Positions 12,545-18,491 of a stretch of 64,000 nucleotides of DNA are shown here, in pieces. The DNA lies in contig MU401641.1 of NCBI GenBank assembly GCA_022579005.1, positions 1 to 64,000 on the forward strand, given 5' to 3'. Position numbers and translations under genes: made by a program. The DNA is from Poronia punctata. Lineage: Eukaryota; Ascomycota; Sordariomycetes; Xylariales; Xylariaceae. Positions within the stretch are counted from its first letter, which is position 1; every line of letters begins with the position of its first letter. The notes below the pieces were generated by a model that ran no database searches, was not told the DNA's origin, and saw nothing but the letters and a program-made list of their open reading frames with translations.

Positions 12545-14209
12545 ATGTCGATGATACCTGTCGGCCTCTATGGCCTCGAGGTTCCGCCTCTAGGCGTCAT
12601 GGTCCCTGCTTTGCAAGAGGACAGCATGCCCGATGCCTCTGTACGTATCATCAGTCATCCGCCCTGCTTGGTCAAAATGCTTGGGCGACAAGCGATTGGC
12701 CTAGATATTGTGCCCCAGACCAGAAGAAGCTTCAGTTACTTATGCGTTGCTCTTAGTTCCGGATCACCATGGCCGCTCTCGACCCTACTGAACCACCCGA
12801 GGCCGATGAAGATGGAAATATTCCTAACATTCCCCGCTCGACTTTGAAGCTCATTCGTCGCCGTGTCTCTCCTGAGGATGAGGAAGTGGACGAGGATCTT
12901 TTAAACCGGCTTCTGGCCAATCATAACGACGACGATGAGGATTCCGATGATGACGACGATGATGAGCCTAACGGCGGCCCCAGCGATAAAGCCAAGAGCC
13001 AAAAGGCAAAGGCGGAGGCTCTCAAGAAACTGATCGCCGCGGCTAATGCAGAGGACTCGGACGAGGAGATGGACGACGATGATGCCAAGCCCAATGGCAC
13101 AAAGTCAAGCAAAAAGGGCAAAGAGCCCGCCACCTCTAGCGACGAAGATGACGATGAGAGCATATCATCCGATGATTTGGAGATCGAGGAGCTAGTTGTC
13201 TGCACATTAGACACTGAGCGGGTAGGTCTAGGTTCTGGTCTCTTTCGGCGCTTGATCGCTAACACCACTTCCAGAATTACCAACAGCCACTAGACATCAC
13301 CATTGGCCCTGACGAGCAAGTTTTCTTCATTGCCAAAGGTACGCATGCTATTCACCTCACTGGTAACTACGTCGTCGAAGCCGATGATATATCCGACTCT
13401 GAATCGGAGGGTGATGAGGACTACGACCTGCCGGCTGGCATGGAGGGCTTTGACGAGTACGAATCGGATTCCGAGGCCGACGATCTCGATGATCTCGAAG
13501 ATCCTCGTATTACGGAGATTGAGTCGGACGAGGAGGACGCGCCTAAGCTGGTTGAATCTAAGAAGGGTAAAAACAAGCGCGCCGCTGAGGAAGAAGCCGA
13601 GAGTCTGGACGATTTGATGGCAAAGGCCGAGTCGGTTGAGAAGCTTAGCAAGAAACAGCTCAAGAAGCTCAAGAACAACAAGGGCGAAGCCGTTACCAAG
13701 GAAGAAGCCAAAGCCGAGGCCAAGGAGATGCCGGCCAAGAACGATAAGAAGGTTCAATTTGCCAAAAACCTTGAGCAAGGGCCCACGGGCTCTACCGTCG
13801 TCGAAAAGACCGGCTCTCTAGGCGTCAAGGTAGTTCAAGGTGTCACCGTCGACGACCGCAAGCTTGGAACGGGCCGCGTCGTGAAGAAGGGCAACAGGGT
13901 CGAAGTTCGGTACATCGGTAAACTGACGGACGGCAAGGTCTTTGACTGTAAGCATTACCCCTCCTTACACCCTCATCGATGGCGATTATTGACCATCGTA
14001 TAGCAAACAAGAAGGGTAAGCCTTTCAGCTTCAAGGCCGGCGCTGGTGAGGTAATTAAGGGATGGGACATCGGTGTCCAAGGCATGGCGGTCGGTGGAGA
14101 ACGCCGACTGACCATTCCTGCGCATCTCGCGTACGGCAGCAAGTCTCAGCCCGGCATTCCTGGCAACAGCCAGTTGATCTTTGACATTAAGCTGCTGGCG
14201 ATTAAATAA
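12545..14209 (+). CDS. fpr4: FK506-binding nucleolar peptidyl-prolyl isomerase (Fpr4/Fpr3 type)
   Basis: This nuclear/nucleolar prolyl cis-trans isomerase and histone chaperone acts on histone tails and ribosomal chromatin in yeast. Exons 12545-12640, 12757-13221, 13275-13947 and 14004-14209 join to 479 residues, with introns of 116, 53 and 56 nt. The N-terminus ('[17 protein letters not shown]') begins the nucleoplasmin-like domain. Long Asp/Glu tracts (about 80-125 and 230-270) alternate with Lys-rich segments that can act as nuclear and nucleolar signals. The C-terminal FKBP domain (about 390-479) has 'VEVRYIGKL', '[13 protein letters not shown]' and '[12 protein letters not shown]'. The order nucleoplasmin-like, acidic/basic, FKBP is diagnostic of this subfamily. 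The start is in a good context (caccATG). Confidence 0.95.
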
Positions 14210-15386: not shown

Positions 15387-18300
15387 ATGTCGGCAATCCG
15401 GACAATGAATAGCAGTGGTGAGTACGAGAATCCCTTCCGCAGCCCATTTCCCGTATACATACCTCGGCCTCATTGTATTCGGGCATACACGAGGTTCAGT
15501 AGCTAATTCTCTCTTCCACTCTCATAGCATCTGCCAATTCCACTAAAGAGCCGACAACATGGCCAGCCCCTTCGCCTACGCCGAGAGACCAATTCTCTGA
15601 GAGACATCGCCTCTTCGGCAAGATGTCTCTTCCTTTCCTCAAGACAACTTTCGGGGGGGCAGTCACCGTTATCCATCGTGTCAAACAAAAGTCTAGGCCT
15701 TCGGCTCTCCCGATGGAAGCGTCAGCAAACAAGCCCATGCAAGCTAGTGCACCAGCGATTCTATCCATATCCACATCGTACAGCAATACAAACTCGAGCG
15801 GAAAATCATCAGGCCCGACGATAGGAACCGGCACGACTGCGAAAACTTCTTTCGAGTCCAAGAAATCGGGCAAAAATGAGGAGACTGAAGAGAAACGACC
15901 GGCAAGCATAGTGCATCATAAGGAACCAGAGACGACACCAATCATTTCAGATTTCGCACTCGGCACGATCCAGGAAAGGATTGTGGAACCGCCCTCGCCC
16001 ACCATTTGTACCGTTGAGAAGGCTGCGGCCGCTAAGATATACCTGGAAACGTACTTCAACGAGAAGCTCAATGTCCCTTCTCCTCGTTCCCTCCGCAAAA
16101 GATATCTGGAGAGTGAACTTTATCATTGCCTCGAACTGACCCCGGCCGAGAAGGACATGCGTAGGGCTGTCTTCTACGAGCATGAGACCAACAACCTTCG
16201 CGAAAGTCGAGCCTTGGCAGCGAAGAGCATCGGTGCCATAAAGGGGCAACACAATAAACTCGTCGACAGATATGAGGTTCTCAAGGTACTTGGGAAGGGA
16301 AGCTTCGGCGTCGTCAGGCTCGTCCGCGAGAAGACCGGCGACGGTGCCCGGCCGAGTGGTCGTGCATATGCTATGAAGGTAATTCGTAAAGCAGCAATGT
16401 TGAAGACAAGCCAAGAAGGACACTTGCGCGCAGAGAGGGACTTTCTCGTTGCCTCTGAAGGTTCGAGATGGTAAGCTATACACATACAAGCCCTCACCAT
16501 TCGTCGAGTATTTCTCTTTCTCTTTCTTTTAGTAAAGGTGCTGGATGCTCATTGTGATGCCATACAGGATCGTCCCGCTTATCACGAGTTTTCAAGATAT
16601 TGCGAATCTCTACCTCGTCATGGATTACATGCCAGGGGGTGACTTTCTTGGTCTCCTCATACGCGAGAATATCCTCAGCGAGCCCGTGGCCAAATTCTAC
16701 ATTGCCGAGATGATCCTTTGCATCGAAGAAGCGCACTCGTTACGTTGCATCCATCGAGACATCAAGCCCGACAACTTTTTAATCTCGGCCAGCGGTCACC
16801 TAAAGATATCGGATTTCGGACTAGCATTTGACGGGCACTGGTCACACGACACGGGCTATTACCATACCCAGCGGTACAGTTTGCTTTATAAGCTGGGTGT
16901 ACCTGTAGAAGGCGACCGCACGGACCGAGCCGAGGGTCTCCAAGGCACGGTGAAATGGACGCAGGGGGTCACACAGGCTATGAAGAAGCACGAGCGCCAG
17001 CCGGTTATAGACGAGGCATCCCAGGCTCCCCGCGATGAGCCATTGCTCAACTGGCGCAACCGGAACAGCATTCGTAGCAGCGCTCGGTCCTGTGTAGGAA
17101 CGAGCCAGTATATGGCACCCGAGGTCATCCGCGAGGGTGAGTACGATGCAAGATGCGACTAGTAGAGCCTCGGCGTCATCTTGTATGAGTGTCTTTACGG
17201 GCACACACCATTTCTTTCCGAAGAGGGTGGGCGCCAGCAGACAAAGAGGAACATTGTGAATCATGTACAGACCTTTGCCTTCCCGCCACGCCCTGTAATA
17301 TCCAGACGGTGTTTGGATCTCATGGCCAACCTTATTTGCCCACGCGAAGAGCGTCTCTCCTCTAAACGGTACCAGACTCGAGACGCACGACCGGAACACC
17401 CGCCACTGGGGAAAGGCCGCATGCAGCAGCGGACGAGGGACCACAGGGGCCGTGCCGTGTACCCACACGATGCCGAAGACATCAAGGCGCACAAGTGGTT
17501 CCGCGACATCCCATGGGAGCAACTGCATCTAATCACACCGCCGTTTGTGCCACAGATTTCTTCCGTCGAGGACACACACTACTTTGACGAGGAAGAGCCC
17601 ATCTCTGACTGGTCCGAGTCAGCTGACGAGGACACAGACTCCGATACAGATCAAGAAGAAGATATTGAGCCGCCGCCGCCGCCGCCGGTAGGTTTGGAGG
17701 TCAACCCGCTAGCTACCTACGCAGGGGTAAATACGCCCATCCCTAGGATGCAGGCTGGTCACCCGTCGACGGTGATCCGGCGCAGCCCACAGAAGTTGGC
17801 TGCTATTCAGTTACAGCTAGCAATTTTCCCACGGAGCGCAAGGGGGATGCTCGCGCAGTTTGTAGCGACGCCCTATGACTCAAACCGCCTCAAACACATG
17901 GACAAGGAGATTGAGGCTATGGCGCTGGTGGTCGGAAACCACTATACGAATACCACCGGGCAGCCGTTCCTGGACGAGAGCCAAGAGAATGAAACTGTGG
18001 CACTGGCACAAGAGATGAAAGCATTCGTGCGTGAATTCGGCCGCCGCGAACGCAAGAGGCCCCGTGACCGCCTCCTTCGGGACCCAAGAACCAAAGCGAC
18101 TGTGCTGGAGATACGAAAGGAGACCGCTTTTCTCGGATACCAGTTCAAATGTGCCGCGGTCAAAGCTGTGCCCGATATGATGACGTTGGATGGCGCAGAC
18201 GAAGAGGTAGAAGAGGGGATAACGGTATGGGTCGCTGAGGTGAAGAAGATGGCCGAATTCGACAGCGCACATGACAATTCTCCCTGTGCAACTGCATATG

Positions 18301-18491
18301 GAACCGTGGCCATAGGGCCCGAGGGGATGGGGCTGGGTGTCGGTTGGGCAAGGTGAGTAGAAGAAGGCGAAACTGGGCTGACTGACCGAGGTGTGGATGC
18401 GGCCCGCCTTAGGACATCAAAGCTCGGAACTGGGAGTCCGGAGGTCTCGTATAGATATCTGGTCGATGTCGAGGTGATTCGGAGAGAGTAA
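15387..18491 (+). CDS. PUK1: PUK1-type AGC/NDR-like protein kinase with tandem in-frame UAG codons
   Basis: Exons 15387-15417, 15528-16470, 16568-18352 and 18413-18491 join in frame to 946 codons, with introns of 110, 97 and 60 nt. Codons 523 and 524 (17160-17165) are TAG TAG. On either side the kinase domain is intact: P-loop 'GKGSFGVV' near 266, 'AMKVIRK' near 296, 'HRDIKPDN' near 386, 'DFGLA' at 408, 'VGTSQYMAPE' near 500, then D-stop-stop-SLGVILYECLYG. The family has Asp-Trp-Trp-Ser there, so each TAG replaces a TGG. An NDR-like N-terminal extension (about 160-255) and a long acidic, Pro-rich C-terminal part complete the protein. In Fusarium graminearum, PUK1 is known to carry two adjacent UAG codons in its kinase domain that A-to-I editing converts to UGG UGG during perithecium formation. 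I infer that this is the ortholog and not a pseudogene, because about 2.8 kb of frame is otherwise undamaged. Confidence 0.88.
17146..17186 (+). promoter_or_regulatory. Predicted RNA hairpin presenting the tandem UAG codons for A-to-I editing
   Basis: Left arm 17146-17155 (atgcaagatg) pairs with 17177-17186 (catcttgtat) over 10 bp: nine Watson-Crick pairs and one G-U. The 21-nt loop holds both UAG codons, with target adenosines at 17161 and 17164, each preceded by U. Fungal A-to-I editing is known to favour U at -1 and hairpin loops. The pairing is seen in the sequence; its role is inferred. Confidence 0.6.

Follow-up and report, generated by a model that had tools for sequence, protein, structure and literature searches.

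How can a conserved protein kinase be produced from a gene whose reading frame is closed, in the middle of the catalytic domain, by two consecutive UAG codons? The question is raised by a locus on contig MU401641.1 of the Poronia punctata assembly GCA_022579005.1, of which the first 64,000 nucleotides (hereafter, the window) were analysed. The gene lies on the forward strand and begins with the ATG at 15387. Its short first exon (15387..15417) encodes the same N-terminal residues as the NCBI protein P0001, and the second exon (15528..16470) covers the N-terminal region and the N-lobe, including the glycine loop GKGSFG and the AMKV lysine. The third exon (16568..18352), identified by its Pfam Pkinase match and by alignment with yeast CBK1, encodes the remainder of the kinase domain and the C-terminal tail. 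It also holds the tandem stops, namely, TAG at 17160..17162 (codon 523) and TAG at 17163..17165 (codon 524), with candidate edited adenosines at 17161 and 17164, respectively. The Pkinase match reaches up to and across the stops, so that both TAG codons lie inside it. A possible fourth exon on the same strand (18413..18491), ending with TAA at 18489-18491, is uncertain, as is the preceding intron (18353-18412); both are absent from the NCBI model, which ends in GVGWAR, corresponding to the TGA at 18354-18356.

The preliminary description of this DNA had placed TAG TAG at codons 523-524 of a frame bearing no other damage, and both the sequence and the spliced model bear this out: from the ATG at 15387, stops occur at codons 523, 524 and 946 only, with no further in-frame stop before the terminal one. 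Its gene model held in part. The model used here contains 945 codons before the terminal TAA rather than 944 and three introns, the last of which is the one missing from P0001. Across the 64 kb, there are four places where nothing more than one or two adjacent stops parts two open stretches in the same frame, each 120 codons or longer, and among these the kinase site is the sole one on the forward strand and the sole tandem one; homology on both sides of the stops was examined at the kinase site only. Elsewhere in the genome, kinase matches also show in-frame TAGs, which introns may produce.

The identity of the gene is well supported by sequence comparison. Among structure-linked matches (best 60 of 2267), the kinase domain is closest to Cbk1/NDR, the nearest solved domains being CBK1 (4lqp, E 1.1e-78) followed by kinase 38 (6bxi, 4.6e-72). 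In the alignment with yeast CBK1, the motif CDWWSLG sits exactly over the two stops, so that codons 523-524 correspond to the Trp-Trp of the Asp-Trp-Trp in kinase subdomain IX. The preliminary assignments to the AGC/NDR-type kinases, to the relatives of PUK1 and to this subdomain IX site are thus upheld, and phylogenetic analysis groups the gene with Sordariomycete orthologues. In the orthologue tree, the Xylariomycetidae proteins form one side of a branch with local support of 99, and Hypocreales, Leotiomycetes and Sordariales need two changes each, the tree broadly tracking the orders. The published genes are represented by stand-ins, a Fusarium culmorum cluster (P0163) for FGRRES_01058 and a Neurospora crassa cluster (P0194) for NCU03242; the latter is included only in the FastTree tree of 210 relatives described below and is absent from the earlier orthologue tree. 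In-frame UAG at the subdomain IX Trp codons, a feature of the PUK1/stk-21 group, is present at both codons of the window gene. Overall, the gene is the PUK1/stk-21 orthologue of P. punctata, encoding an AGC/NDR-like kinase.

The nearest annotated protein among the matches listed is P0001, from P. punctata itself (Xylariaceae). It is identical to the window product over 477 kinase columns, from which the stop region was excluded, and its gene model drops the residues around the stops; the protein and the window may come from one assembly. NDR kinases carry a phosphorylatable Ser/Thr in a C-terminal hydrophobic motif. In the window product and P0001, this motif reads FLGYQF, with Gln at the position where Thr is usual (only 2 of 190 rows). 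The motif pattern is matched by 61 other rows, with 56 Thr, 2 Ser and 3 Ala, and is unmatched in the remaining 127 of 190. Because the window kinase lacks Ser/Thr in the hydrophobic motif, we refer to it as NDR-like rather than as a strict member of the NDR group. Upstream, in the same direction, the neighbour is a gene for an NPL and FKBP-type isomerase protein (13263..14209, forward strand, the part examined). In Fusarium longipes (P0186) and Stachybotrys chartarum (P0114), annotation joins the NPL and FKBP domains to the kinase in a single protein, suggesting that the neighbourhood of the NPL-FKBP gene and the kinase is conserved and old.

To compare the gene with its orthologues, as the preliminary description had proposed, we inspected the Trp-Trp site in 210 relatives collected in three protein searches (best 120 of 2730, 2112 and 3365 matches), each row being a 90% cluster; the choice of query affects which groups are well sampled. 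Each relative was placed in the order to which we take its named species to belong. Annotation avoids the site in 154 of the 179 Sordariomycete proteins and in 154 of the 210 relatives overall (among the matches listed). The same limit to the matches listed applies to the breakdown by group. The site is missing from 69 of 72 Xylariomycetidae models, the other three having Trp-Trp; in Hypocreales, 67 of 68 skip it and one keeps Trp-Trp; the single Calosphaeriales and the single Glomerellales protein both skip it. The 25 proteins of Sordariales, Coniochaetales and Chaetosphaeriales comprise 16 that skip the site, four with Trp-Trp, four with Asp-Tyr-Trp and one with Trp-Trp followed directly by a skip. 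Trp-Trp is intact in all 26 Leotiomycetes, all six Diaporthales, all six Magnaporthales and all five unnamed proteins. In the Thozetella protein (P0197), Trp-Trp is present and the residues directly after it are skipped.

The omission is sharply confined. In Xylariomycetidae, residues 515-524 are covered by a fraction of 0.07 of the models, and the ten-residue stretches across 255-504 and 545-684 are each covered by at least 0.90; in Leotiomycetes, the site is covered by 1.00 of the models. The controls match the published states: the N. crassa protein (P0194) skips the site, and that of Pyricularia oryzae (P0201) has Trp-Trp. The sections of PMC4817773 consulted here describe N. crassa stk-21 (NCU03242) as carrying UAG at the first codon only, edited in perithecia, and Magnaporthe oryzae and Claviceps paspali as having neither stop. 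All 12 Claviceps rows listed skip the site, and none of them is named C. paspali, the species published as stop-free (PMC4817773).

Among the ways to account for these stops without RNA editing, inactivation of the gene fares best, and even this we consider very improbable. Under this scenario, the kinase was lost through two G-to-A changes, which repeat-induced point mutation, for instance, could have caused, and the frame that is still open is the vestige of a recent loss. The position of two stops within a conserved domain would fit, as would the Gln that replaces the hydrophobic-motif Thr in Poronia alone (the query and P0001, 2 of 190 rows). However, the spliced frame contains no other stop, and conservation persists beyond the tandem: mean identity to the Xylariomycetidae proteins P0002-P0071 is 0.82 before the stops (residues 257-500) and 0.72 in the kinase lobe after them (546-668), and Rosellinia necatrix P0004, a protein with Trp-Trp, shares 224 of 266 residues with the window product before the stops and 111 of 144 after them. 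Furthermore, the site is skipped in most of the relatives listed, and a pseudogene would hardly retain the C-lobe across so many species. Nor was a close second kinase copy, which would make the gene dispensable, found in the genome; the next match to a 79-residue query shows 49% identity over 51 residues.

A real intron or alternative splicing event removing the stops, as NCBI annotation has it for P. punctata and further Xylariales, is slightly less probable still. The shared omission in Xylariomycetidae models and a GTGAGT string just upstream, at 17137, would speak for it. However, the 66-nt intron that P0001 would require (17124-17189) opens with a GTCATC donor, closes with GAG and contains no CTRAY. 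Of 38 GT-AG spans, 40-250 nt long, that bridge the stops and preserve the frame, none combines a GTRNGT donor with CTRAY 12-60 nt before the end, a soft test given that the accepted second intron of the same gene also lacks CTRAY. In addition, the models of different species rejoin at different points, and the intron would delete residues from the APE motif to the Asp-Trp-Trp of subdomain IX. Sequencing of cDNA refuted the counterpart in Fusarium graminearum, a predicted third intron over the stops of PUK1 (PMC4817773).

A full-length protein would likewise result from ribosomal read-through or from a UAG suppressor tRNA. Read-through of two UAGs in a row is inefficient, which counts against the former, and the exact correspondence of UAG to Trp is accounted for by A-to-I conversion; no tRNA gene of any kind was detected in the 64-kb window, the scope of the suppressor search. 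We give these mechanisms only a slight chance. A sequencing or assembly error, conceivable given the single assembly from which P0001 may also derive, is the least credible of all: the same omission recurs in gene models of dozens of further genomes, and F. graminearum has been published with both of these stops.

The reading that we favour, and hold to be highly probable, is that the PUK1/stk-21 orthologue of P. punctata is closed by UAG UAG at the Asp-Trp-Trp of subdomain IX and opened by A-to-I editing in perithecia. The exact site and codon pair are those of F. graminearum PUK1 (FGRRES_01058), in which the tandem stops UA1831G UA1834G are edited at both adenosines in perithecia to UGG UGG (PMC4817773), at levels of 91% and 99% (PMC11156358), and we count this coincidence as evidence for editing in Poronia. 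The class of explanation put forward in the preliminary description, correction of premature stops by A-to-I editing, is well supported by comparison with PUK1/stk-21. In P. punctata, the kinase gene would be transcribed in perithecia, where Ame1 would redirect the Tad2-Tad3 tRNA deaminase to deaminate the adenosine of each UAG (17161 and 17164) as the perithecia develop. The edited codons would be read as UGG UGG, that is, Trp-Trp, and the resulting full-length, active kinase would be used in ascospore formation. The PUK1/stk-21 group is further characterized by perithecium-specific expression and by being required to form or release ascospores, both of which the Poronia gene would be expected to show. 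Editing, its restriction to this stage and the kinase function are the most likely interpretation of the comparative data. The further proposal of a truncated kinase in vegetative cells is doubtful and, in our opinion, over-reads the locus, because PUK1 is barely transcribed in vegetative Fusarium, its expression being almost perithecium-specific (PMC4817773).

Genes for a Tad2-Tad3 pair and for an Ame1 candidate are present in the genome. The editing enzyme has been described as Tad2-Tad3 acting with Ame1, a DUF726 protein in which a Met-Val pair at positions 500-501 replaced an ancestral Lys-Asn in Sordariomycetes (PMC11087585). We identified a Tad2-like gene (L016) with HAE and PCVMC motifs and a Tad3-like gene (L021) with HAA and PCVMC, that is, without the catalytic Glu. 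DUF726 is encoded in four places, one of which, L014 (C14:226822-227884), has MV where the other three copies have NQ, RN and LD, the pair being one residue off the offset predicted from the published numbering. Counted from the nucleophile position, every one of the four copies has Asp at +58 and two of them, L011 and L014, have His at +98, the spacing that the published 531/589/629 numbering of Ame1 demands. The nucleophile position of L014 is occupied by Gly instead of Ser, which fits the reported dispensability of that Ser (PMC11087585). The DUF726 domain and the MV pair make L014 a candidate Ame1. SPO22 and DNA methylase families were also searched, chosen because their Fusarium members are edited; no stop was found within the matched stretches of the SPO22 family (L023) or of the DNA methylase, family-level matches that introns may interrupt and that we leave out of the verdict.

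The immediate context differs in part between the two adenosines. Each is preceded by U (-1) and followed by G (+1). Against the base preferences around edited adenosines in section 6 of PMC9600606, the first (17161) has preferred bases at five of the six scored positions and depleted bases at none, and the second (17164) has three preferred and three depleted bases among the six. The region is predicted to fold into a hairpin (17146..17186, forward strand) whose stem has 12 pairs and a single bulge; above it come a weak tip of four pairs, which holds the first UAG, and a loop of 6 nt, which starts with the second. The second adenosine has an unpaired probability of 0.95, and the first, partly paired, of 0.34-0.52. 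Location of the adenosine in a hairpin loop is a preference of fungal editing sites, not an absolute one. The hairpin does not outperform synonymous recodings of the protein, of which 1000 were folded for each of three lengths (P 0.33-0.39 for energy and 0.24-0.67 for enclosing pairs), and relative to dinucleotide shuffles it yields z of -0.71 and -0.60. We considered the hairpin as proof of selection and rejected this idea, because synonymous recodings fold about equally well; the stem apparently follows from the conserved YDARCD-WW-SLGVILYE coding sequence. Folding of this kind agrees with editing and provides no evidence of selection for it.

The state of each codon in the relatives can be approximated from the points at which their protein models rejoin, following a rule that holds for phase-0 junctions only: a GT-AG intron ending just before the second Trp needs NAG at codon 1, and one ending just after it needs NAG at codon 2. 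Rejoining just before the second Trp, implying NAG at codon 1, is seen in 33 models, and rejoining just after it, implying NAG at codon 2, in 33. The minimum number of changes on the FastTree tree is 15 between intact and avoided; for codon 1 it is 12, and for codon 2 it is 10. All three figures are inflated by gene-model noise. In the earlier orthologue tree, a stop confined to codon 1, followed by TGG, is implied for 13 of 17 Hypoxylaceae rows and four of six Amphisphaeriales-like rows, and also for four Xylaria rows (P0002, P0005, P0023 and P0025). These first-codon-only states suggest that the tandems of Poronia and Fusarium are probably separate events, the second UAG having been gained apart. 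Plain Trp-Trp, found in three of 72 Xylariomycetidae, all 12 Diaporthales and Magnaporthales and one of 68 Hypocreales, indicates that the stops are not indispensable in Sordariomycetes.

The four proteins with Asp-Tyr-Trp instead of Asp-Trp-Trp (P0202, P0204, P0205 and P0209) all belong to Podosporaceae. TAY is one base away from TAG and two from TGG, and this proximity suggests a passage via the stop codon, with the codons deduced from the protein. It is possible, although we would lean against the combination as a whole, that a stop at the first Trp was kept as a sex-only switch in much of Sordariomycetes and tied to the origin of Ame1-dependent editing, that the Poronia tandem arose independently of that of F. 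graminearum, and that Podosporaceae escaped by UAG-to-UAY change, yielding Asp-Tyr-Trp through a once edited stop. For Leotiomycetes, where Trp-Trp is intact throughout, mRNA editing has so far not been found, according to the sections of PMC11087585 consulted.

The phenomenon, the gene and the codon pair are already known; the species and the order look new, no report of editing of the PUK1/stk-21 gene in Xylariales or Poronia being among the papers listed. Beyond the known case, sequence comparison points to the breadth of the site over Sordariomycetes and to the Asp-Tyr-Trp state in the four Podosporaceae rows. If the Poronia gene is edited, the founding example of fungal mRNA editing reaches Xylariales. 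Furthermore, an annotation defect, in which residues at a single spot are left out, points to candidate edited stops across many genomes. From existing DNA, one can then count how often such a site was gained or lost and how old it is, and long-standing stops look tolerated or selected rather than recent accidents.

The Poronia kinase can be compared with genes already characterized. AMD1, CHE1, FgAMA1 and FgRID share the UAG-to-UGG correction and the false introns in annotation (PMC5496914, PMC11169179, PMC11156358), but encode proteins unrelated to this kinase, and among the corrected genes compared, the sections of the literature consulted describe a tandem stop pair for PUK1 only. Within the orthologous group, N. 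crassa stk-21 has UAG UGG where Poronia has UAG UAG, the first-codon UAG being common to both, whereas FVEG_01191 of Fusarium verticillioides, in which the second codon only is a stop and is edited (PMC4817773), has UGG UAG and shares the second-codon UAG. The closest counterpart is PUK1 of F. graminearum, of which a non-editable TAA TAA allele fails (PMC4817773): it belongs to the same orthologous group, carries the tandem UAG UAG at the same subdomain IX Trp codons and, like the Poronia gene, had a false intron predicted over them. The Poronia gene differs in belonging to another lineage, Xylariales, in which editing and its perithecial stage are predicted from the sequence.
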